64,000 bases of DNA from Phycisphaerales bacterium (GTDB taxonomy: Bacteria > Planctomycetota > Phycisphaerae > Phycisphaerales > SM1A02). Numbering within the stretch: the first letter of the stretch is position 1; the number at the start of each line of letters is the position of its first letter. Shown in pieces: positions 25,121 to 45,310 of the stretch. The position numbers were made by a program, and so were the translations under genes. The notes below the pieces were generated by a model. That model had not been told where the DNA came from, ran no database searches, and saw nothing but the letters and a program-made list of their open reading frames with translations. The stretch lies in the NCBI GenBank assembly GCA_009691915.1, contig SIAD01000003.1, positions 1 through 64,000 on the forward strand, given 5' to 3'.

Positions 25121-26791
25121 ATGGGCACTGCACTGATCGGCGATCCCGGGGGACCAAGTCTCCTTCTTGACGCACGGCGCAATCTCGATGCCGCGTTTAC
25201 CGAGCGCGAGCGGGAAGACCACGGGCTGATCGGACTCCTTCCCGACGGAATCGAGTCGATGGAAGTCCAGCTCGACCGTGCGCGCGCACAGTTTGCCGAC
25301 CAGCCGAGCGATCTCGCGAAGTACCAGTTCCTGTCGGCGCTGCAGGATCGGCAGGAGCGGCTCTTCTACGCCCTGCTGCGAAGTGACTTTCAGCGGTTCA
25401 TGCCCATCGTGTACACGCCGACGGTCGGTGAAGCGTGCCAGCGGTTCGGACACATGATGCGCCGACCAAAGGGGATGTACATCTCCACTCGCCGCCGCGG
25501 GCACATCGCGAAAGTGCTTCGCAACTGGCCGGTAAAGGATGTCCGCTTCATCGTCGTGACCGATGGCGAACGGATCCTCGGTCTGGGCGATCAGGGTGTC
25601 TGCGGGATGGGAATTCCACTGGGGAAACTGGCGCTGTACACCGCGTGTGCGGGAGTTCCTCCCGAAGTGACGCTTCCGATCGTCATCGATGTGGGGACCA
25701 ACAACGAGGCCTTCCTCATTGATCCTCTCTATCCAGGTATCCGCCAGAGACGCATCGAGGGCGAGGAGTACCTGTCGCTCATTGACGAATTCGTAGACGC
25801 GGTGCAGGCAACCTTCCCGGACTGCTGCATTCAGTTTGAGGACTTCACCAACAGGAACGCGATCCCCCTCCTGAACCGGTACCGTGAGAGAGTCTGCTGC
25901 TTCAACGATGACATTCAAGGGACCGCGTCTGTTGCGGTCGCGGGGCTCTTCGGTGCCTGCCGCCTAGCCGGGACGACCCTCAGCCAGCAAACGATCCTCT
26001 TCCAGGGCGCAGGGAACGCGGCCGTCGGTATCGCGGATCTCTTCGTGAAGGAGTTGGTGGCCCGCGGAATGGCCTTCAAGGACGCGCTCGACCGCTGCTG
26101 GTTCGTCAACTCGCGTGGGCTGGTCTGCGCCGGAATGCCGAGGCTTCCGGAGTATCTCACGCGCTACGCGCACTCGTTGGACGCCGTGTCCATCCCCGAG
26201 GGGGCGGTCGCGGGTCCAGACTCTCCGATGACCAGCCTCGCCGACTGCATCGAGGCGATCCGACCAACAGTGATCGTCGGAGTCTCTGCCGTAGCGCACG
26301 CGTTCTCGGAGACGGTCGTGCGGGCGATGGCGCGGCTCAACGACCGACCGATCATATTTCCGCTCTCGAATCCGACCAACAAGTCCGAGTGCACGGCGGA
26401 GGAGGCGATCAAGTGGTCGGGCGGACGCGCAATCGTCGCGACCGGCAGCCCATTTGCGCCGCTGCACTTTGGGGGGAGACTCTTCGTGCCTGGGCAGGGG
26501 AACAATGTCTACATCTACCCGGCGGTGGGGATGGCGGTGTACGCCTCGCGCGCGAGGAGGGTCACCGACGAAATGTTCCTGTGCGCGGCCGAATCGCTGG
26601 CGCGGCAGACGACCGATCATGACCTCTCGGTGGGACTGATCTATCCGCCCGTCGGCTCGATATTCGAGACGAGTGTGCAGGTGGCAGTCGATGTGGCGCG
26701 GCTCATCTTCGAGTCTGGCCTCGCGCGCGAAGAGCACCCGGTCGACATCGCCGAGTTCGTGCGGGCGAAGGTCTACTTTCCGGAGTTCTGA
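25121..26791 (+). CDS. maeA: NAD-dependent malic enzyme (oxaloacetate-decarboxylating)
   Basis: A 556-residue enzyme that converts malate to pyruvate and CO2, linking the TCA cycle to the pyruvate/PEP node served also by PPDK at 59393. It belongs to the large (about 560-residue) malic enzyme class. PIVYTPTVGEACQRFG carries the catalytic Tyr, VTDGERILGLGDQG follows, and FEDFTNRNA plus FNDDIQGTASVAVAGL give the metal-binding acids. FQGAGNAAVGIADLF is the dinucleotide loop, and PLSNPTNKSECTAEEA follows. Its 3' end overlaps the convergent DUF1573 gene by 19 bases. Confidence 0.95.
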   Translation: MGTALIGDPGGPSLLLDARRNLDAAFTEREREDHGLIGLLPDGIESMEVQLDRARAQFADQPSDLAKYQFLSALQDRQERLFYALLRSDFQRFMPIVYTPTVGEACQRFGHMMRRPKGMYISTRRRGHIAKVLRNWPVKDVRFIVVTDGERILGLGDQGVCGMGIPLGKLALYTACAGVPPEVTLPIVIDVGTNNEAFLIDPLYPGIRQRRIEGEEYLSLIDEFVDAVQATFPDCCIQFEDFTNRNAIPLLNRYRERVCCFNDDIQGTASVAVAGLFGACRLAGTTLSQQTILFQGAGNAAVGIADLFVKELVARGMAFKDALDRCWFVNSRGLVCAGMPRLPEYLTRYAHSLDAVSIPEGAVAGPDSPMTSLADCIEAIRPTVIVGVSAVAHAFSETVVRAMARLNDRPIIFPLSNPTNKSECTAEEAIKWSGGRAIVATGSPFAPLHFGGRLFVPGQGNNVYIYPAVGMAVYASRARRVTDEMFLCAAESLARQTTDHDLSVGLIYPPVGSIFETSVQVAVDVARLIFESGLAREEHPVDIAEFVRAKVYFPEF

Positions 26792-27846
26792 ACCGGAGTC
26801 GAAGCCACGACTCTCGGCGCCGCATCGAAGTAAATCCAGAAGTCGCTCGACTTCGTGGCGCCTGCGGGATCGGTTGCGGTCATCGAAACCGGGGCGAGAA
26901 TGATGCCCGTCGCGTTGGGCGCGGCCGTGGCCGCGAGTGAGATCATCGCGTGATCGGTGTCCGATTGTTGCGCCATGAACTCGACCAGAACGCGCGGATC
27001 TCGCGACGCGACTCCGGTCACTCGCCATCCCTGCGACTTCTTCAGCTCGAACTCGAACGCGGTGCGAACGCCAGGCTCAAGCGCTCCGAGATTGGCGCGA
27101 TACTCGGCGAATGGGAGTTGCGGCGAAATCTTTGTGCACTTGTGCCGAATACGAAGGTCGATGATCGGCGCCTTCGGATGGTCAGTCGCAATGACGAGGT
27201 ACGGCGGAACTCGGTCGCAGGGAATCCCGGCAAGCGAGTACTTCACCTGGTACGACGGGCGCGGCGCGTCCGATGAGGGGACGAATCCGACAAACTGGGC
27301 TGGAGCACCCATGACGCTGGTGACTCGGAACACCGTAGAGTCGATCGACGCGACCGTCACAATCCCGTCAAGCGGCGCAGAGGCGGATCCCTGTGGCAGC
27401 GCTGGATCCCCGAAGGCGTTGATGTACGGGACGGTGGCACCACTCATGAAGTCGATGGCGGTCGCGCGCACTGGGTAGGCAATCTCCCCCTTCATCTCGA
27501 CCGTTACGGGCGGGATCCCCGGACCAAAGGTGAATGTGATGCCCGCAACCTTTATCCCCGTCGCGGCCGAGACCTTCATCGTCATCGGCAGTTCGAGCGC
27601 CGCGCCAGGCTGGATCACCTTTCCCTGGGCATCGACCGATGTGCAGGTGCAGCTCGGAATGGCGGATGCAATAGTGACGGTCTGCGCCCCTGTGTTCACG
27701 AGGCGGAAACTCCGTGTGATGGTCGCGCGAGGCTCGATGAACCCAAGCGGGATGACCGGAGGATCGGCGATGACCTGAGCGGTGGCCACCCACGCCAAGG
27801 AGAGCGCACCAAGGGCGGAGGCGGCGAGACAACCGATCGTGCTCAT
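26773..27846 (-). CDS. Exported DUF1573-domain protein
   Basis: A 357-residue exported protein with a signal peptide (about residues 1-23, ending TAQ). A DUF1573 Ig-like domain follows, with FRLVNTGAQTVTIASAIPSC and the Cys-x-Cys of the family at residues 66-68 (PSCTCTS). This domain is abundant in Planctomycetes and Bacteroidetes exported proteins; its function is not established. The rest contains further beta-sandwich-like stretches (DLRIRHKCTK, FEFELKKSQGW). A paralogue lies at 46095-47156, and both genes start next to a shared divergent -10 element. Confidence 0.8.
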   Translation of the reverse strand: MSTIGCLAASALGALSLAWVATAQVIADPPVIPLGFIEPRATITRSFRLVNTGAQTVTIASAIPSCTCTSVDAQGKVIQPGAALELPMTMKVSAATGIKVAGITFTFGPGIPPVTVEMKGEIAYPVRATAIDFMSGATVPYINAFGDPALPQGSASAPLDGIVTVASIDSTVFRVTSVMGAPAQFVGFVPSSDAPRPSYQVKYSLAGIPCDRVPPYLVIATDHPKAPIIDLRIRHKCTKISPQLPFAEYRANLGALEPGVRTAFEFELKKSQGWRVTGVASRDPRVLVEFMAQQSDTDHAMISLAATAAPNATGIILAPVSMTATDPAGATKSSDFWIYFDAAPRVVASTPVQNSGK

Positions 27847-27851
27847 CGACC

Positions 27852-27858
27852 TAGTATA
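27852..27858. promoter_or_regulatory. Symmetrical bidirectional -10 element
   Basis: Plus-strand TAGTAT (27852-27857, 12 bases from ATG 27870) overlaps minus-strand TATACT (27858-27853, six bases from ATG 27846). Only 23 bases separate the two start codons, so both messages must be nearly leaderless and share one polymerase site. Confidence 0.5.
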
Positions 27859-27869
27859 GATGCCTACCC

Positions 27870-28928
27870 ATGAAGGCCATCGTCGTACTGAGGCGGGGGA
27901 ATCCCGTGGCGCCGAACATCGGCTGTGTCAACGATCTCGCGACACCGACGCCTGGTGCTGGTGAGCTGCTCGTACGCACCGAGGCGTCCGCCCTCAACAG
28001 TCTGGATCTCTGGGTGGGCCGAGGCCTTCCCGGAATCGACACGAAGTACCCGTTCTGCGGTGGATCCGACGGAGTAGGCCGGGTGACCACCGTGGGTGAT
28101 CTCGTCGACAAATCGTGGGTTGGCCGTCGCGTCATGCTCAATGCTGCGGTCGTGCAACCGCAGGGCGCGCTTCCCGAGTCTTTGAGATCCGGTGAAGACA
28201 TCCGGATGATCGGCGAGCACACCGAGGGGACCCATGCCGAGTGGTTTGTCGCTCCAGCGTGCAATGTGCTTGACATCGGCGACGCCGATCCGATTCAGGC
28301 GGCGGCATTTGGTCTGACCCATCTGACTGCATGGCGGATGCTCGTGACTCGGGCGCGGCTGCACGCGGGAATGACCGTCCTCGTCACCGGGATAGGCGGC
28401 GGCGTGGCGGTGGCGCTCCTCAACATCGCCCGCCACTTCGGCTGTCGGGTCATCGTGACAAGCCGACACCGGGCAAAGCTTGCTCGCGCACTCGAACTGG
28501 GCGCGTCCGACGCGATTCTCGACGATGGCAGCGACTGGTCGAAGTCGGTGCGCGCCGCCACCTTCAAGCGTGGCGTGGACATCGTGGCCGACTCGATAGG
28601 GAAGGCCGTCCACCCTCAGTGCATCAAGTCGATGGCCCGAGGCGGAGTGTTTGTGACCTGCGGGGCGACGACGGGGGGGGAGGCGACGACCGATCTCGCA
28701 CGGATCTTCTGGAATCAGCTCACGATCATTGGGTCCACGATGGGAGACATGGTGGAGTTCCAGGAAGTAACCAGCCTCTTCCGCGGCGGTTCGCTCAAAC
28801 CACAGGTAGACGCGGTGTTCGCTCCCGAGCGCGGAGTCGACGCCTACTCACGGCTCGAGGCCGCGGAGCAGTTCGGCAAGATCGTCATCGACTGGCGATC
28901 GGCCAATAACACTGGAGGGAATCGTTGA
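27870..28928 (+). CDS. Zinc-type/MDR alcohol dehydrogenase or quinone reductase-like protein
   Basis: A 352-residue medium-chain dehydrogenase/reductase. The GroES-like N-half has EASALNSLDLWVGRGLPG and PFCGGSDGVGRV. The Rossmann half has TVLVTGIGGGVAVALLNIARHFG and VIVTSRHRAKLARALELGASDAI, with an NADPH-type Ser-Arg after the second strand. The usual catalytic-zinc Cys/His set is incomplete and no structural-zinc four-Cys lobe is seen, so it is closer to quinone-oxidoreductase or crotonyl-CoA-reductase-like members than to zinc alcohol dehydrogenases. The substrate is unknown. Confidence 0.82.
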   Translation: MKAIVVLRRGNPVAPNIGCVNDLATPTPGAGELLVRTEASALNSLDLWVGRGLPGIDTKYPFCGGSDGVGRVTTVGDLVDKSWVGRRVMLNAAVVQPQGALPESLRSGEDIRMIGEHTEGTHAEWFVAPACNVLDIGDADPIQAAAFGLTHLTAWRMLVTRARLHAGMTVLVTGIGGGVAVALLNIARHFGCRVIVTSRHRAKLARALELGASDAILDDGSDWSKSVRAATFKRGVDIVADSIGKAVHPQCIKSMARGGVFVTCGATTGGEATTDLARIFWNQLTIIGSTMGDMVEFQEVTSLFRGGSLKPQVDAVFAPERGVDAYSRLEAAEQFGKIVIDWRSANNTGGNR

Positions 28929-28946
28929 TTGTGGACTCTAAATATT

Positions 28947-28974
28947 TTGGATTCTCTCGAATCGGTGCTACTTT
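28947..28974 (+). promoter_or_regulatory. Candidate sigma70-type promoter of the first large dockerin gene
   Basis: TTGGAT (28947-28952), a 16-base spacer, then TACTTT (28969-28974). It would give a leader of about 90 bases before ATG 29068. The spacing and hexamers resemble those before 31470. Confidence 0.4.
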
Positions 28975-29067
28975 CAGAGCGTAAAGGCCCAGCCTGAGTT
29001 GTTCTGGTCGGGTATCGCCGCGTCGCCCATTCCCGCTGGTTCACCCGCCTGCACAGGAGTCAGAAAG

Positions 29068-31149
29068 ATGAAGAACTGCGATCGATTCGCAATCACAGCC
29101 TCAATCGTTGTCGTTGGTTCGGCACTTGCCTGCGCGGAGATCGCCGCTGCCCAATGCTCGGTGACACCTCCGCCTGGCGCGATTGTCTCACCGGACGGAT
29201 GCGCCCATACGACTGGAGGTCCCGTCGACTCCAACGGCGGCTGCAATCAGATCCCAGCCACATTCACCGACCTTGGATCGATTCCTTCGGGCGGCGCGAT
29301 CAATGTCAGTGGCCAGTTTGGAACCTACAACCCCGCGGGAACTGGCGCATCCACAACGCGCGATCTCGACTGGTATCTCGTTGCTACCGATGGCGGGACG
29401 CTCACCGTGACTCTCCAGACGCGGAACTCCGTCGGCACCGGCCAGATGGCCAATAGTGTGATCTTCATCAAGGGGAATGTCGGCTCAGACCCCTGCGTCG
29501 GCAACTTCAATGTCGGAATCCAGAGCACTGTGTGCCCCCATGTCCAGACTTACATCGGCGGGGCTGGCACGCATCTCGTGGTCGTCACGACTCCCTTCGA
29601 GACCACAGGGGCGGCCGAGATTTACAACTGCGGTCAGTACCTGCTGACGCTCTCGCACACACCTCTCAACTACCCGGTGTGCGGGACCTCGACGGCGGAT
29701 TGCACGGCACCGCACACGATCGGCGGATGCAATCTCCCCGCGTGCTGCGACAGCGTTTGCGGTTTCAACCCAATCTGCTGCGATGTCGGCTGGGATCAGA
29801 GTTGCGTCGACCAAGCCGTCACCAGCTGCGGACTCTTCATCTACAACTGCGCGCCTCCGACGGGAGCTCCGGCCAATGACTGCGCGATCTCTTCGCAGTT
29901 GATCTCGGTCGGTCAGCCCAATGTCGTCGTGAACAACGCCGCAGCGGGAACCGACGGGCCGGTCGGCCCGGCGGCAACCTGTGCCGCCAAGATGGGGCGC
30001 GACCTCTGGTACACGATCAAGGCTCCAACTGATGGCGCTCTGGGTCTTACCACCTGCCCAACTGGCGATGCCACAACTGACACCGTGATCGAGCTCTATG
30101 GGCTCGGCACCGATCCGGTCGTCACTGCTGCGCGTGCGTCGACGCTTCCTGACCTCTACATCGGGTGCATCGACGACTCCTGCCCAGACGCGTCAGGAAC
30201 GGTGATCGTGGGCGGCCCAACAGCGGTCACACTCATCGACGCGGTCGGCGGCGACTATTACCTCATCCGAATCGGTGGCTGGTACGACGACACCACATCC
30301 GGGCCGGACGCGGCTGACACATTCTCAGTCACGCTGGAGACAGACTTCCAGTATGTCGTTTACACGACCGGTTCGCAGCACTCGATCAACTCGAGCGGCG
30401 TGCTGACCAACGTGGGTCTTAGCTCAGGCTGCACGGCGGCAACGACTCCCCAGCGCTGGCTGGCACAACCATTCAGTGTTCCAGCCTCCTCGTCCGAGTG
30501 GAATGTCGAAAGGATGACGGTCAAGGGCTTCGCTCCAACCGGTGTCACCAATACGACCATGAATTATGTCGTGTGGAATCGCCTCGCAGGGAACCCGGCG
30601 CCGACAGCCGCCAACCAGCGGATCACCGGTTCCGTACCGTACCCCGTCGGATACGACAACGCCGCCGACGATGCGGCGAATGCGTCTCATGACATCGGCG
30701 TCGCGTTCGCGCTCCCGCCGGGCAACTACTACCTGACGGCGTACGCGACCAACGCGAGTTGCGCGACAATCTTCTCGAACTTTGCGTGGTTTGTCAGCGC
30801 GTACGACGGGATCAACCTCATTGACGGTGCTGGGTCATTCTGCTGGCGCTCCTCGACTTTCCCGACACCCGGCTTCGTCCGCTTCACGCTCCCAGCGACC
30901 TTCACGCAGCCCACGGGCGTGGATCCTGCCGACATCTACAACACGGCGTTCGACATTTTCGGAACGCCGACTACCACGACCCCTCCATGCCCGGCCGACT
31001 TCAACGGCGACCAGGTCCGTGACGGCTTGGACATGACCGTCATTCTCTCAAACTGGGGGATGGCTGGCGGCGATGTGAATGGAGATGGGACGACGGATGG
31101 CCTCGACATGACAGTGCTCCTGTCAGGTTGGGGCGCCTGCCCGAACTGA
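29068..31149 (+). CDS. Large secreted Cys-rich protein with dockerin-like C-terminus
   Basis: A 693-residue exported protein (signal peptide about residues 1-27, ending AAA). It contains two beta-sandwich regions resembling pre-peptidase C-terminal domains (DLDWYLVATDGGTLTVTL; GRDLWYTIKAPTDGALGL with YYLIRIGGWYDD). Between them is a 50-residue 10-cysteine module (29680-29829). It ends in two calcium loops (DFNGDQVRDGLD, DVNGDGTTDGLD), each followed by LSxWG. Cys residues flank the tail on both sides (PPCPAD at the start, GACPN at the end). No catalytic motif is seen, so it is likely a surface or matrix protein. ATG 29068 is preceded by GGAGTCAGAAAG. It lies in tandem with a related gene at 31470. 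Confidence 0.82.
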   Translation: MKNCDRFAITASIVVVGSALACAEIAAAQCSVTPPPGAIVSPDGCAHTTGGPVDSNGGCNQIPATFTDLGSIPSGGAINVSGQFGTYNPAGTGASTTRDLDWYLVATDGGTLTVTLQTRNSVGTGQMANSVIFIKGNVGSDPCVGNFNVGIQSTVCPHVQTYIGGAGTHLVVVTTPFETTGAAEIYNCGQYLLTLSHTPLNYPVCGTSTADCTAPHTIGGCNLPACCDSVCGFNPICCDVGWDQSCVDQAVTSCGLFIYNCAPPTGAPANDCAISSQLISVGQPNVVVNNAAAGTDGPVGPAATCAAKMGRDLWYTIKAPTDGALGLTTCPTGDATTDTVIELYGLGTDPVVTAARASTLPDLYIGCIDDSCPDASGTVIVGGPTAVTLIDAVGGDYYLIRIGGWYDDTTSGPDAADTFSVTLETDFQYVVYTTGSQHSINSSGVLTNVGLSSGCTAATTPQRWLAQPFSVPASSSEWNVERMTVKGFAPTGVTNTTMNYVVWNRLAGNPAPTAANQRITGSVPYPVGYDNAADDAANASHDIGVAFALPPGNYYLTAYATNASCATIFSNFAWFVSAYDGINLIDGAGSFCWRSSTFPTPGFVRFTLPATFTQPTGVDPADIYNTAFDIFGTPTTTTPPCPADFNGDQVRDGLDMTVILSNWGMAGGDVNGDGTTDGLDMTVLLSGWGACPN
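29680..29829 (+). repeat. 10-cysteine module, copy 1
   Basis: Encodes ten cysteines with gaps of 6, 8, 4, 0, 3, 5, 0, 7 and 7 residues, including GGCNLPACC and NPICCDVGWDQSC. Copy 2 at 31980-32129 has exactly the same gaps although over half of the other residues differ. Confidence 0.75.
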
Positions 31150-31178
31150 GTCTGACCTTAGTAGTTATTAGCAATATC

Positions 31179-31209
31179 GCCCGTCAGTCGAGAGACTGGC
31201 GGGCTTTTT
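31179..31209 (+). terminator. Rho-independent terminator of the first large dockerin gene
   Basis: An 11-bp stem (GCCCGTCAGTC at 31179-31189 with GACTGGCGGGC at 31194-31204, one G-U pair) closes on a GAGA tetraloop (GNRA type). TTTTTATT follows. Confidence 0.92.
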
Positions 31210-31328
31210 ATTGAATATTCAGTAACAAGCATCGATTGGGGCCGGTCAGAGTGGAATGTCGCAGTCGCGCAACAGACACCCCCTCCGTGGGCACCCGAAT
31301 GTTTTTTGGTGGGTTTTGCACGGCAAAA

Positions 31329-31357
31329 TTGGAACGGCCGTGATCAGGGGCTAGTTT
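31329..31357 (+). promoter_or_regulatory. Candidate sigma70-type promoter of the second large dockerin gene
   Basis: TTGGAA (31329-31334), a 17-base spacer, then TAGTTT (31352-31357), giving a leader of about 105 bases. The gap 31150-31469 otherwise holds the terminator above, a short CACGGC/GCCGTG inverted repeat around the -35, and an imperfect hairpin (CTTCG with CGAAG) in the leader. Confidence 0.45.
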
Positions 31358-31469
31358 CTGATCGAGAACCTCTCGTGCTGCTTCGTTGCGGCAGGGCGGG
31401 ACTCGCTTGCGAACCCCGCGAAGCAGTGTTGTGTGTCTCATCAAGACCCGTGAAGAAAGGCTTACTCCA

Positions 31470-33947
31470 ATGAAGATTCGTTGTACCACCTCGACGATCC
31501 TCACCGCGACGGCTGCTGCCCTCGCGATGACGGCCGTCAACTGTTCCTACGGACAGGACGAGTGTGCAGGCGCTCCTCCAATCGCCGCGAATACCCCGAC
31601 GGCGTACTCAACAGTTTCGGCAACCCCAAGCGCCAACATCCCAACCGATGCTTTGTGCGCGGGAACCTACCTCAACTGGCTAGACACTCAGAACGATGTC
31701 TGGTTCACCTTCACGGCCAGTGAGCCCGGCCTCGCCGAGTTCACGACCTGCGATCCCGCGTCGTATGACACTTCGCTGGCGCTCTACAAGGGCACCTGCG
31801 GCAACCTGATCGCCTGCAACGGCGACGGAACCGGCGGTTCCGGCTGTCAGGTCTACTACTCGCGCATCGCTGATGTCGCCTGCCAGGCTGGCGATCTCTT
31901 CTTCATCCGCATCGGCGGATACAACGCGGCTGTCGGCGCGGGCAACATGACCGTGAACTTCACGGCATCGTCGGCCTCATGCGTCGGCGCGACCGGAGCA
32001 TGCAATGTGGCGCACGGCGGACTCGGATGCGACAACCCGACCTGCTGCACGAACATCTGCACACTCAACCCACTGTGCTGCGAAATCGGGTGGGACGGGG
32101 ACTGCGTTACCCTCGCCATTCAGCAGTGCGGCTACTACTTCTGTGCACCGGTTGGCGGAGCCCCCGCCAACAATTGCGCCACCAGCGCTACGGCGATCTC
32201 GAGTACTGACAGCACGGTGAACTTCAACTCTGCTGGCGCAACCATGGACGGGCCGAGTCAGCCCGGCCAGTGCGCGTCGGGTAATGAGTTCTTCTACAAC
32301 GACATTTGGTACAAGGTCTCACCGATCGCCAACGGAACCATGGGGCTGTCCACCTGCGGTGCAGTCGGCTACGACAACAAGCTCGCCGTCTACGACATGG
32401 GAACCAATCCCGCGTCCTTTAACTTCAACGCGATCGCCGCGAGCCTCGTCGGCTGCATCGATGACGGTGCGAGCGGGACCTGCTTCCTCACGGATGGCAC
32501 GACCCCGTACGCCGCTGAGATGGAGGCCGGAGTTGAGCTCGGCCACACCTACCTCATCCGCATCGGTTCGTACGAAGAGATCGGTATGGGTCCTGGCACG
32601 ATGATCGTCAACATGCCGGAGGCCTGCACACTTCCGACGCCAACCGGCAGCGAGGGTGAAGATTGCGGTCTGGCAATCAACGATGGCTGCAACGGCGATG
32701 GTGGGTCGATCTCGGTTGGACCTAGCTCGATCACGTCCGGCACCTTCTGGGCCGAGGCGGACACTTCCGGCAACGGCAACCGCGACACTGACTTCTATAC
32801 AGTCAGCGTTGGATCGGACACCTCGCTCACCGCGTCTGTCCATGCGGGCCGTCTGGTCACGGTACTCGTGCTCACTGGCGATCTCAGCATCGCTGACTGC
32901 ACCGGCGTGACGGTTGTTGCCGAAGCCACGGGGACCTGCCCGTCGGTGGCGACCTACTGCATGAACGCGGGCTCGTACCACATCTTTGTCGCGGACGCCG
33001 ACTTCGCAGGAAACCCCTGCGGAAGCGGAATCTTCAACGACTACACCCTCTCGGTGACAACGGCTGCTGCAAGCTGCCCGATCACCGTCTCGGGTGGTGG
33101 CGCGACCGCCGGAACCTGCGACGCTGCTGGCCCGAATTCGTTCTCGATCAACACCAACCCCGATACGGTCACAGGCGGAGTCGTCGCGTGTGCCTATGGC
33201 AATGGCGCCTTCCCGAACTGCGCGTCGGGCGGTACCACGGTCAACAGCTACGCCCGCGTCTTCCCGGCTGGCCAGCTCACCGGCGACATCAGTTGCATCA
33301 ACTTCGGCGCGTACTGCGTCGTTCGTGCAACCAACACGGCGGGTACGGCTTGCGGTCTTTACTACAGCGATGTCCCGCTGCCGGCGCAATTGGGTATCTA
33401 CCGCGACCTCGATGGTGGAGCACCCCGCCGCACGACTGTCGACGGCGGCGTTGACGGTGGCGATCTCGAAGCCATCGTCGTTCAGGAAGTCCGAGTGCCA
33501 GGCGGTGTCTACCGCGCGACGCTCAACTTCTCAGAGCCGGTGTGCGTCATGGATGACACGGCGAACAACCTCGTCGTTGTCATCGAATTCCCGCTGGTCG
33601 GCGGCACGGGATACAGCATCCGCGCCGGTAGTAACACCTTCGGGCCAGGTATGAACACCTACTGCCGCCTCAGCTGCGCCGACGCCGCTGGGCAGTTTGT
33701 CCTCACCGAGTCTCTCGGCGCGACATTCACGGCTCAGTGGGTCTGCCAGCTCAATGGCACCAATGGTGTCAACTGTGGCGCTCCCTCGTGCCCCGCCGAC
33801 TTCAACGGCGACGGCCTCCGCGACGGTCTCGACATGACTGTGATCCTGTCGAACTGGGGCGGTGCGGGCGGCGATGTCAACAGCGACGGCACGACCGACG
33901 GTCTTGATATGACTGTCCTTCTGTCGGGCTGGGGCATCTGCCCGTAA
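31470..33947 (+). CDS. Large secreted Cys-rich protein with dockerin-like C-terminus, tandem relative of the preceding gene
   Basis: An 825-residue exported protein (signal peptide about residues 1-28, ending SYG). Three successive PPC-like beta-sandwich regions are seen (NDVWFTFTASEPGLAEFTTC; NDIWYKVSPIANGTMGLSTC with TYLIRIGSYEE; DTDFYTVSVGSDTSLTASV). The 10-cysteine module lies after the first of these. The C-terminus is the dockerin-like pair DFNGDGLRDGLD and DVNSDGTTDGLD, each followed by L-S-x-W-G, with Cys on both sides. AAAGG lies about ten bases before the ATG. It is homologous to 29068-31149 over the module, one sandwich domain and the tail, suggesting duplication and domain gain. 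Confidence 0.83.
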   Translation: MKIRCTTSTILTATAAALAMTAVNCSYGQDECAGAPPIAANTPTAYSTVSATPSANIPTDALCAGTYLNWLDTQNDVWFTFTASEPGLAEFTTCDPASYDTSLALYKGTCGNLIACNGDGTGGSGCQVYYSRIADVACQAGDLFFIRIGGYNAAVGAGNMTVNFTASSASCVGATGACNVAHGGLGCDNPTCCTNICTLNPLCCEIGWDGDCVTLAIQQCGYYFCAPVGGAPANNCATSATAISSTDSTVNFNSAGATMDGPSQPGQCASGNEFFYNDIWYKVSPIANGTMGLSTCGAVGYDNKLAVYDMGTNPASFNFNAIAASLVGCIDDGASGTCFLTDGTTPYAAEMEAGVELGHTYLIRIGSYEEIGMGPGTMIVNMPEACTLPTPTGSEGEDCGLAINDGCNGDGGSISVGPSSITSGTFWAEADTSGNGNRDTDFYTVSVGSDTSLTASVHAGRLVTVLVLTGDLSIADCTGVTVVAEATGTCPSVATYCMNAGSYHIFVADADFAGNPCGSGIFNDYTLSVTTAAASCPITVSGGGATAGTCDAAGPNSFSINTNPDTVTGGVVACAYGNGAFPNCASGGTTVNSYARVFPAGQLTGDISCINFGAYCVVRATNTAGTACGLYYSDVPLPAQLGIYRDLDGGAPRRTTVDGGVDGGDLEAIVVQEVRVPGGVYRATLNFSEPVCVMDDTANNLVVVIEFPLVGGTGYSIRAGSNTFGPGMNTYCRLSCADAAGQFVLTESLGATFTAQWVCQLNGTNGVNCGAPSCPADFNGDGLRDGLDMTVILSNWGGAGGDVNSDGTTDGLDMTVLLSGWGICP
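31980..32129 (+). repeat. 10-cysteine module, copy 2
   Basis: Same ten-cysteine spacing as copy 1, with LGCDNPTCC and NPLCCEIGWDGDC. The shared non-Cys positions include a His after the second Cys, NP before the CC pair, and GWD. Confidence 0.75.
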
Positions 33948-33985
33948 GTCGATTCGGTAATCACAACACTGCTTCTGCTACAACA

Positions 33986-34018
33986 AGCCCCTCTGGTCGT
34001 AGGACCAGGGGGGCTTTC
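33986..34018 (+). terminator. Hairpin terminator of the second large dockerin gene
   Basis: A 13-bp stem (AGCCCCTCTGGTC with GACCAGGGGGGCT, one G-U pair) and a GTAG loop are followed by a short TTC tract. The T-run is weak, so efficiency is uncertain. Confidence 0.75.
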
Positions 34019-34073
34019 GCGCTTACCCCTGTGATGTAGCCTCTCTGGTTCCCCCTGCGGTTGAGGAGCCCCC

Positions 34074-35426
34074 GTGTCGAAACCAATGAAGTACGGAGTC
34101 ATCTCGTCGATCGTCGTCGTTGTCGTGGCGATCATGTTCGGGAAAGAGATGTGGGGTGTCCTGATGGACATCCAGGCCGAGGGCGGGCTTGAGGCTCGGA
34201 TCGCGCTCGTGGCGGAGGGGTCCTTGCGCGAGAGCGTCTCCGCCCCCGGCTATGTCGAACCGGTCTCAAAGGTGGACATTTCGGCGCAGATTTCGGCACG
34301 AATCGTGGCGTTGGCATTCCGCGAGGGGGATCCGGTCAAGAAGGGTGATGTCGTCGTGCAGTTGGACGATCGGAACCTAAAGGCACAGTTGGCGTCAACG
34401 ACAGCAAGACGCGATGGAGAACGGGCGAGGCTGGAAGCGGAGAAGGCCCGTTCGGCCGGCCCTAGGCAATCCCTCGAGAATGCTCTGCGAAACCTTGAGC
34501 GGCAGCGAAAGCTCTTCGAGACCGGGGATGTGTCGAGGCAGGCGCTCGACGACGCGCTTGTACGGAGCGAGGAACTTCAGGCGACTGTCGCGGCGACCGC
34601 TAAGACGCTCGGCGCGCTGGAGAGCTCGCTCGCCGCCAGCGAGGCGGAGATCGAACGCGTTAGGGAAGAAGTCGCCTACGCCACGATGCGCGCGCCGATC
34701 GATGGGACGATCACGCGGCTCAATGCGGAGGTTGGTGAGCTGGTGGTGGTCGGGACGATGAACAACGCCGGCACGGTCATCATGACGGTTGCTGATCTTG
34801 GGCGCATGCGCGTTCGCGTGCAGGTCGCCGAGGCCGACATCGTCAAAGTGCAGGAAGGGCAGCCGGCCGAGATCCACATCAACGCCTTTCCTGAGCGGGT
34901 GTTTTCCGGGGTCGTGGAGGAAGTGGCCCTTCAGCGGACCTTGACGGCAGGTGGCGGGTCTCAGGCCCAGTCCGCTGGAACTTTCAAGGTCGACATCTCC
35001 CTCGACACCGAGGGGCTCAAGGTGTATTCCGGGCTCGCCGCCAATGCGGACATCACCATCAAGGAGCACCATGGCTTGGTGGTGCCGACGCAGGCGATTG
35101 TTGAGCGCAAGCGGGATGACCTTGAGGCGGATCTCGCAGATTCGCCTCACTTCAAGGACGCGCAGCGAGTCGTCCCGATCATCTATCGGGACAACGATGG
35201 TGTGGCGCTCCCGACCGCCGTGAAACTTGGTGCCAGCAGCCTGACCGAGACGATTATCGAGGCCGGGCTTGAGGCTGGCCAGAGCGTGGTGATCGGCCCC
35301 TACAAGACACTTGAGAAGCTCACTAACGGCGAGACTCTTCGCAAGGATGCAACCATGATCGGTGGGCCAGGAAGACCCGGCGGACGGCGGTCTCGTTCTG
35401 GAATGTCCGTCAGGATCGGCATGTGA
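34074..35426 (+). CDS. MacA/HlyD-type periplasmic adaptor of an efflux system
   Basis: A 450-residue membrane-fusion protein. One N-terminal membrane helix is present (about residues 8-26). A biotinyl-lipoyl half-motif (ISAQISARIVALAFREGDPVKKGDVVVQLDD) follows, then a helical hairpin of about 100 residues (95-195, Glu/Arg/Ala-rich). The returning lipoyl half is MRAPIDGTITRLNAEVGELV, followed by beta-barrel regions. The C-terminus ends in a Gly/Arg-rich tail (GGPGRPGGRRSRSG). It is the first gene of a four-gene exporter operon, six bases before the ATPase. The GTG start is preceded by TTGAGGAG, a good ribosome site. Confidence 0.9.
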   Translation: MSKPMKYGVISSIVVVVVAIMFGKEMWGVLMDIQAEGGLEARIALVAEGSLRESVSAPGYVEPVSKVDISAQISARIVALAFREGDPVKKGDVVVQLDDRNLKAQLASTTARRDGERARLEAEKARSAGPRQSLENALRNLERQRKLFETGDVSRQALDDALVRSEELQATVAATAKTLGALESSLAASEAEIERVREEVAYATMRAPIDGTITRLNAEVGELVVVGTMNNAGTVIMTVADLGRMRVRVQVAEADIVKVQEGQPAEIHINAFPERVFSGVVEEVALQRTLTAGGGSQAQSAGTFKVDISLDTEGLKVYSGLAANADITIKEHHGLVVPTQAIVERKRDDLEADLADSPHFKDAQRVVPIIYRDNDGVALPTAVKLGASSLTETIIEAGLEAGQSVVIGPYKTLEKLTNGETLRKDATMIGGPGRPGGRRSRSGMSVRIGM

Positions 35427-43930: not shown

Positions 43931-45310
43931 ATGCGATTGACCACTCTCTCCACCGTCTGCCTCTCGTTCGCCGTTGCCTCAGGCGCCTTGGCTGGCACGA
44001 CGGCCATCAAGCCAAAACTGGTTCTTTCGACGGGGCTCACCTACCCGACTTTTCTCACGCACGCGCCCGGCGACACCGACCGGCTGTTCGTCATTGAGAA
44101 GCGGGGGCTGATCCGGATCATCGACATCTCCACAGCGACTCCGACGCTTCTGACAACGGCGTTCCTCAACATCGATGCGATCGTGACTGGAGGCGCCTCC
44201 ATCAGCGATGAGCAGGGGCTGCTCGGATTGGCCTTCGATCCGGACTACACAAACAACGGACAGTTCTTTGTGTACTACACGGGGTCTGGAACGAATGTGG
44301 TCGCCCGCTACACGCGCAGCGCTGCGAATCCCAATGTGGCCAATGCGACCGGCGTCATCATGTTGAGTTGGTCCGACCCATACACGAATCACAATGGCGG
44401 ATGGATGGACTTCAAGCCAGGGACACGCGATCTCTACATCGGTACCGGCGATGGCGGCAGCGCGGACGATCCGTCGGGCAACGCGCAAAACCTCACCAGC
44501 AAACTCGGGAAAATGCACCGCATCGCCCCGACTGTCGGCGGCGCTTCCCCGTACTACACGATCCCCGCGACCAACCCATACGCCGGTGGCGCAACCACCA
44601 TGGACGACGCGGTCTGGGCGTACGGCCTTCGTAACCCCTGGCGATGCAGCTTCGACCGCGAGAACGGCGACCTCTACATAGGCGATGTCGGTCAGAACGC
44701 CGTCGAGGAGATCGACTACCAGCCGTCGGGGGCAGCTGGCGGGCGCAACTACGGATGGCGCTGCACTGAGGGAAACAGCTGCACCGGTCTCACCGGCTGC
44801 ACCTGCAATGGTGCAACCCTCACCGCCCCCGTGCGAACACACACCCACTCGGCCACAGGCGGCTACTGCATCACCGGCGGATATGTCTATCGAGGGTGCG
44901 CGATGCCCGACATGCAGGGGGTCTACTTCTACGCTGACTACTCCGCGAACAACTCATGGTCGTTCCGGATGGTCAACAATGTGGTGACCGAGTTCGTGAC
45001 CCGCAACAGCGAGTTGCAGACGGCGCTCGGCGGACAGGCGGTCAACCAGATCGCGTCCTTCGGCGAGGACGGCAACGGCGAGCTCTACATCATCGACCAC
45101 GGCGGCGGCATTTACAAGGTCGTTCCAGCGTCCGGCGAGATTGCCTGCCCGGAGCCGAATCCCGCCGATCTCAATGGCGACGGGGTCGTCAACGGCGCCG
45201 ATCTCACCATCATCCTGTCGTGCTGGGCGAGCCCCTGCGCGGACATCAATGGCGATGCCACCACCGACGGCCAAGACCTGACGGTCGTCCTGAGCAGCTG
45301 GACTCCCTGA
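43931..45310 (+). CDS. Secreted PQQ-type sugar dehydrogenase (GSDH) with dockerin-like C-terminus, second copy
   Basis: A 459-residue paralogue of the product of 679-2058, with the same length and order: signal peptide (residues 1 to about 22, GALAG), GSDH six-blade propeller and a doubled calcium-loop tail. Propeller motifs are sharper here (GLRNPWRCSFDRENGDLYIGD and DVGQNAVEEIDYQP are the diagnostic stretch, plus YRGCAMPDMQGVYFYADY). The tail loops are DLNGDGVVNGADL and DINGDATTDGQDL. Two extra cysteines lie inside the tail (LSCWASPC), unlike the flanking cysteines of the large proteins. ATG 43931 begins a clean signal peptide. Confidence 0.88.
   Translation: MRLTTLSTVCLSFAVASGALAGTTAIKPKLVLSTGLTYPTFLTHAPGDTDRLFVIEKRGLIRIIDISTATPTLLTTAFLNIDAIVTGGASISDEQGLLGLAFDPDYTNNGQFFVYYTGSGTNVVARYTRSAANPNVANATGVIMLSWSDPYTNHNGGWMDFKPGTRDLYIGTGDGGSADDPSGNAQNLTSKLGKMHRIAPTVGGASPYYTIPATNPYAGGATTMDDAVWAYGLRNPWRCSFDRENGDLYIGDVGQNAVEEIDYQPSGAAGGRNYGWRCTEGNSCTGLTGCTCNGATLTAPVRTHTHSATGGYCITGGYVYRGCAMPDMQGVYFYADYSANNSWSFRMVNNVVTEFVTRNSELQTALGGQAVNQIASFGEDGNGELYIIDHGGGIYKVVPASGEIACPEPNPADLNGDGVVNGADLTIILSCWASPCADINGDATTDGQDLTVVLSSWTP

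Follow-up and report, generated by a model that had tools for sequence, protein, structure and literature searches.

Modular extracellular proteins rich in disulfides are known above all from animals, in which EGF-like repeats form tandem disulfide-rich extracellular modules. The somatomedin B domain (PF01033) has eight cysteines, a C-x3-C-x5-CC-x6-C stretch and no long helices, and several known peptidase inhibitor families are likewise small, disulfide-rich and tandem. Here we analyze a ten-cysteine module encoded by two neighboring genes of a planctomycete. It resembles EGF-like repeats in being a disulfide-rich unit that occurs singly or abutting, beside beta-sandwich and lectin-like domains, and differs from them in that it is helical by prediction, bacterial and without a sequence match, and in that, within our samples, it is found in one planctomycete class and on two viral contigs. 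With somatomedin B it shares the character of a small extracellular disulfide-rich module and a C-x3-C-x5-CC-x6/7-C stretch, whereas it has ten cysteines instead of eight, longer predicted helices and another putative pairing. A bacterial lineage having its own module of this sort, in arrays of up to 19 copies, provides an independent case beside that of animals.

Secreted proteins with dockerins have been described as the "planctosome" of freshwater Nemodlikiaceae, in a study of aquatic planctomycetes without cultured relatives (PMC6461901). Judging by the titles of related records, Nemodlikiaceae probably belong to the same class as the genome studied here, and P-domain and peptidase partners also join the module in relatives. 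The two systems differ in that cohesin was not detected in our genome: PF00963 had no match with E up to 1 to this 95.9%-complete assembly, a search that a divergent cohesin could escape. In the main text of the same paper the word "cysteine" does not appear. Through the module one can approach the secreted proteins of aquatic planctomycetes, about which little is known, and it may also serve protein design as a stable scaffold.

While the kind of molecule, a disulfide-rich modular extracellular domain, is already known, the family, its helical build and its proposed pairing appear undescribed within the literature and databases searched. No description of the module was found among the paper titles and abstract openings listed, which scarcely cover subscription journals. 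The initial reading of the sequence alone had pointed to no named domain, and the module indeed lacks a match in Pfam, NCBIfam and PHROGs, no well-characterized domain having been found; in a Pfam-A scan none of 38 modules matched any family at E up to 10, with HMMER filters that discard most weak matches.

Two adjacent genes and the cysteine spacing of the module

The window analyzed is a stretch of 64,000 nucleotides at the start of contig SIAD01000003.1 of a Phycisphaerales genome (GCA_009691915.1). Its genes P1 and P2 are adjacent, in tandem and both on the + strand; their features are collected in Table 1.

Table 1. Features of genes P1 and P2, with positions in the window and the basis of each assignment
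Feature	Position	Strand	Basis
Gene P1, secreted protein of 693 aa, one module	29068..31149	+	ORF, translation
P1 N-terminus, signal-peptide-like	29068..29151	+	Translation judged by eye
P1 ten-Cys module	29680..29829	+	Match to profile A3, which includes this module among its own members, E 7.2e-18; AF2 pLDDT 94.7
P1 post-module domain, probably beta-sandwich	29830..30306	+	Homology to the P2 domain, itself beta-sandwich by prediction
P1 dockerin-like C-terminal tail	30982..31146	+	89% identity to P2 tail; Dockerin_1 14 bits, cut-off 22.9
Gene P2, secreted protein of 825 aa, one module	31470..33947	+	ORF, translation
P2 N-terminus, signal-peptide-like	31470..31553	+	Translation judged by eye
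P2 beta-sandwich domain 1 (predicted)	31554..31979	+	PF23759 (galactose-binding-like) E 1.9e-7; AF2 strands
P2 ten-Cys module	31980..32129	+	Profile match E 7.8e-17; three helices in AF2
P2 beta-sandwich domain 2 (predicted), after the module	32211..32612	+	AF2 strands, model residues 220-353
P2 dockerin-like C-terminal tail	33783..33944	+	Likeness to P1 tail; Dockerin_1 not among P2 matches

The sequence-only reading had placed one module in each protein, and the translations agree with both placements. When the two modules are aligned, their ten cysteines show the same gaps of 6, 8, 4, 0, 3, 5, 0, 7 and 7 residues that had been reported, and both share a His four residues past the second cysteine followed by GC(N/D)xPxCC, NPxCC and GWDxxCV. 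Counted on the alignment, only 11 of the 40 non-cysteine positions are identical, so that more than half of them differ, as had been stated. BLASTP aligns the module together with the following domain at E 6e-31 (38% over 216 aa), which makes the likeness of the modules a matter of homology and not of chance spacing. The tails of P1 and P2 are identical at 48 of 54 residues; both miss the Pfam cut-off for dockerin type I (Table 1) while a relative (L098) passes it at 30.2 bits, and we therefore term them "dockerin-like".

The spacing had been described as invariant. This holds nearly unchanged for the gaps after the second cysteine; the first gap ranges from 3 to 12 in the family, among copies picked by a regular expression permitting a first gap of 2 to 12. 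In 145 copies so selected, the exact P1/P2 spacing is present in 59, and the same core is combined with a first gap of 7 in 37, of 5 in 21 and of 3 in six. The core of 8, 4, 0, 3, 5, 0, 7 and 7 from the second cysteine onward is retained in 126 of 148 regex-selected copies, a proportion biased upward by a selection that favors core spacing. Membership of the family was defined by the core gaps plus a Trp that follows the last CC and precedes the ninth cysteine, and both window copies have these. Conservation is dominated by the ten cysteines and this single Trp, which is present in all 126 regex-selected copies with core spacing; in the same copies the neighboring Asp occurs in 118 and a frequent His in 93. 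A profile-based set comprised 647 distinct copies, that is, 1027 profile hits minus copies clipped by frame ends, copies containing X and duplicates; in this set, a non-random sample since its loci were chosen from hit lists, 447 of the 647 have all ten cysteines in their columns.

Distribution, arrays and partner domains

The genome to which the window belongs, an assembly of 2.27 Mb in 34 contigs, has 26 module matches at E up to 0.01 to a profile built from the two window copies. The broader profile A3, made of 83 of 94 representatives, also gave 26, spread over seven open frames: P1, P2 and a 741-aa frame have one module each, a 586-aa frame three, a 921-aa frame two, a 1013-aa frame, which also holds a subtilase domain, one, and a 1334-aa frame 17. 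Counting this genome, the module occurs in 34 of 61 related genomes, all of them among the 37 sampled from its own family, and the profile search gave no match in the 24 genomes from other families of the same order. In a sample of the class, 26 of 198 genomes match, ten from the own family, 12 from family f19, three from f8 and one from f22, and an A3 search of 20 chosen genomes matched 13, including all ten picked from f19, f8 and f22. In a sample of the phylum nine of 392 genomes match, all from the own family, in a search limited to 16 scored candidates for each genome, which makes its zeros weak. Full A3 rescoring of 60 genomes of the phylum sample (every third of G237-G414; 59 from other classes and one from the same class) gave no match.

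Among the genomes checked, all carriers of the module thus belong to a single class of the phylum, the profile searches of cellular genomes being confined to this phylum. A contig scan with two narrow patterns yielded 25 named loci, of which 20 are labeled as planctomycete, four as "uncultured bacterium" and one as archaeal, with Baikal or Erken mentioned in some titles; in two of the 25, L126 and the archaeal-labeled L127, the core motif is absent. Going by these labels, the class is probably Phycisphaerae. The earlier remark that similar cysteine patterns occur in other secreted planctomycete proteins is borne out by the many copies with the same core spacing that the profile searches returned.

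Complete frames carrying the module number 149, of which 71 have a single copy and 18 have nine or more, and adjoining modules overlap, abut or sit at most six residues apart in 329 of 387 cases. By profile count, a dockerin-like C-terminal tail ends 89 of the 131 frames with few modules versus one of the 18 arrays; this count (90/149) was used in place of a regular-expression count of C-terminal tails (27/149), which had missed those of P1 and P2. The tail profile has 57 matches in the window's genome, sometimes two per frame. Besides P1 and P2 there are thus 55 further matches, three of which lie within the window itself (1909-2058, 2490-2636 and 45155-45304).

Partner domains were taken from a Pfam scan of 22 hand-picked carriers. 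A subtilase accompanies the module in L086, L181 and L230, a laminin-G-like domain in L186 and L191, a beta-helix in L224, FG-GAP in L099, and in L098 the dockerin above cut-off already mentioned; L101 combines it with a P-domain and PF23759, the latter being present also in P2 and in a frame of L083. The frame at L086:5593-8631 (+) contains the subtilase PF00082 (E 2e-12) together with a degenerate copy of the module.

The 1334-aa frame, with its 17 abutting modules, is located at L085:7621-11622 (- strand) on contig C18 of the window's genome, and elsewhere the module builds abutting arrays of 16-19 copies, 19 being the maximum. Correspondence between arrays was assessed by reciprocal best matches plus colinearity. 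Nine complete arrays from the same genus match the 1334-aa frame module by module and in order (17/17 in eight of them, 16/17 in one), and in a truncated array of the genus 12 of 12 modules correspond. In arrays from outside the genus, the numbers of reciprocal best matches and of those in order are 10 and 10 (L203), 11 and 10 (L213), 10 and 9 (L179 and L208), 9 and 8 (L087), 8 and 8 (L089), 6 and 6 (L125), 7 and 6 (L097), 8 and 5 (L215) and 7 and 4 (L182); for the nine-module array L207 they are 5 and 3. Unusual cysteine patterns keep their position in the array, an example being a module without C2 and C3 that is seen in several arrays. These comparisons point to an old chain whose order is fixed within the genus and only partly retained outside it.

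Predicted fold, disulfide map and function

Structure prediction had been proposed as a check of the module, and AlphaFold2, run on the P1 module stretch with 38 copies in the alignment, returned a confident and compact three-helix fold (pLDDT 94.7, pTM 0.78) whose helices span residues 23-32, 35-38 and 43-53. Module residues 22, 33 and 42 are often Asp or Asn; these sites lie one or two residues ahead of each predicted helix, as would be expected of helix caps, and in our reading this position accounts structurally for their frequency. A 377-residue model of P2 (pLDDT 83.4, pTM 0.56) places the three module helices between two beta-sandwiches. The Foldseek matches of this model include 5iku, at E 8.5e-10 and with an rmsd of 16.6 across the tandem, and 5sv5, at E 2.9e-5 and with a TM-score of 0.71 when scaled to target length, in a list that also contains SIDT1, neuropilin/CUB and other beta-sandwich chains. 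The likeness to these PPC/collagen-binding domains (5iku and 5sv5) belongs to the flanking domains of P2 and not to the module, and Pfam assigns PF23759 to P2 rather than PPC. For the module itself, a sequence profile search of the PDB gave a single weak match, teneurin-4 at E 0.97; Foldseek of the module model against the PDB returned only RuvA rows, none below E 5.5; VIA-align, applied to four chains, gave a best Z of 2.3; and a comparison with viral structures gave five rows, all at E 1.8 or higher. The missing Foldseek match does not by itself imply a new fold, because the model comprises only 56 residues.

Taking into account that paired cysteines should vanish together, we read joint loss as disulfide pairing in the set of 647 copies. 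C1 and C5 are lost jointly in 45 copies, with individual totals of 100 and 53 (P 4.7e-33); C2 and C3 in 20, with totals of 33 and 21 (P 2.3e-28); C6 and C8 in ten, with totals of 11 and 17 (P 6.4e-17); and C4 and C10 in 14, with totals of 16 and 68 (P 5.6e-13), all these P values being descriptive only, as rows from orthologues depend on one another. No cysteine belongs to more than one of the four pairs, and the next-best pair has P 6.7e-3. After thinning to 263 copies, in which those with a common loss pattern and a likeness of 40% or more were removed, the same four pairs lead, at P 8.5e-15 to 2.0e-8, followed by 0.013. The joint losses fall into 14 sequence clusters for C1-C5, seven for C2-C3, ten for C6-C8 and 11 for C4-C10, a few of the rows being degenerate and possibly misaligned. 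For C7 and C9 there is one loss each and no joint loss, and their pairing is therefore by elimination only. The likely map is thus C1-C5, C2-C3, C4-C10 and C6-C8, plus C7-C9, and it is directly testable by mass spectrometry.

Some copies speak against this map. C1 is gone with C5 kept in 55 copies, C10 with C4 kept in 54, and C2 with C3 kept in 13; both C1 and C10 lie beyond variable gaps. A control for nearby cysteines did not discriminate, with 47/55 and 50/54 among single-loss versus 36/45 and 11/14 among double-loss copies. Seven copies lack C1 and C10 and no other cysteine, a number equal to that for exactly C4 and C10, while over all copies the joint loss of C1 and C10 is at chance level (12 both, P 0.35). 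The module had been envisaged as a very rigid knot of five disulfides: the compact predicted fold is in keeping with the rigidity; as regards the knot, the joint losses suggest three stapled helices and two N-terminal disulfides. The domain, of about 50 residues, would thus consist of three short helices stapled by C4-C10, C6-C8 and C7-C9, with an N-terminal arm pinned by C1-C5 and C2-C3.

We consider it probable that the module is a rigid, stable, non-catalytic extracellular unit of structural and binding character, and that the arrays form a rod or scaffold. Its use as a modular unit would be comparable to that of the EGF-like domains of animals. As a single copy beside beta-sandwiches it would be a component of secreted proteins, mostly with a dockerin-like tail, and in the fixed-order arrays of 16-19 copies it would build a stiff cell-surface rod or scaffold; this role, the rod and its surface location are what we infer. 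Catalysis as the main role was set aside, no conserved catalytic set having been seen. Also dropped was the notion that P2 is best conserved in its module: in P2 orthologues the conservation of the module without the cysteines is 0.65 versus 0.652 in the flanks.

Laminin-G-like, beta-helix and beta-sandwich domains are kinds that often bind ligands, and their presence beside the module in single frames (the beta-sandwiches in P2) would suit a specific ligand-binding adhesin domain, for which rigidity is merely the means and in which each array position has its own partner, be it a glycan, a protein or a particle. That the identity of each of the 17 modules is preserved throughout the genus, and partly across genera, argues in the same direction. 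Set against this, a conserved surface of non-structural character cannot be recognized apart from the frequent His, and since conservation outside the cysteines equals that of the flanks in P2 orthologues, no specific binding surface stands out; we regard such a dedicated adhesin function as rather unlikely. The individual conservation of array positions within the genus tells in turn against a role in inhibiting peptidases, or in regulating secreted ones in the manner of a pro-domain, with the modules arranged in tandem as in multi-headed inhibitors. The small, disulfide-rich and tandem character recalls several known inhibitor families, and a subtilase domain is joined to the module in the three frames named above, but Pfam finds no peptidase domain in 19 of the 22 hand-picked carriers, and such a role seems to us very unlikely.

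The module could finally be a divergent member of a described small cysteine-rich domain that profile and fold searches overlooked, and somatomedin B is an example, given that the stretch C-x3-C-x5-CC-x7-C of the module recalls its C-x3-C-x5-CC-x6-C. We give this hardly any credence: the Pfam, PDB profile and Foldseek searches offered nothing better than the weak rows reported above, and the putative pairs C6-C8 and C7-C9 differ from the pairs of somatomedin B. Membership of that family itself was rejected, no Pfam-A family being matched by any of the 38 modules. Compared with these alternatives, a structural and binding unit remains the preferred reading.

Viral contigs and gene neighborhood

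The module was also found on two viral contigs, IMGVR_UViG_3300025168_000086 (61,750 bases, E about 5e-13) and IMGVR_UViG_3300030102_006261 (142,160 bases, E 1.8e-12), the genes concerned being L128:449-4603 and L248:12876-13520. When 85 viral loci were scanned with the profile, only two weak matches, at 0.6, lay below E 1 besides these two carriers. Searches of phage records with the array protein and the viral protein, and of plasmid records with the array protein, gave zero matches. A more far-reaching view, which we hold to be less likely than not, is that of an unnamed superfamily of helical, disulfide-stapled modules with a new five-disulfide arrangement; one planctomycete class would have made of it a conserved extracellular rod of 17 distinct domains with position-specific contacts, and large phages and these bacteria would have exchanged the module. 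By eye, both viral module genes contain further cysteine-rich repeats of a "GACC" type and are followed by similar genes downstream; repeats resembling these viral ones are seen, again by eye, in the planctomycete frame L101.

Around P1 and P2 (window positions 26773-35426) lie genes for a DUF1573 protein, a zinc-type dehydrogenase and an HlyD-type protein, and such neighbors recur near P1/P2 homologues. In 21 related loci (L103-L123), most of which are truncated by contig ends or roughly 4 kb into the flank, the DUF1573 gene is present in 13, the zinc-type dehydrogenase in 18 and the HlyD-type gene in ten; all three occur together in L114, L116 and L123. The order of the two module genes swaps between species, P1 coming first in the window and in L104, and P2 in L105, L106, L107, L108, L110 and L120.
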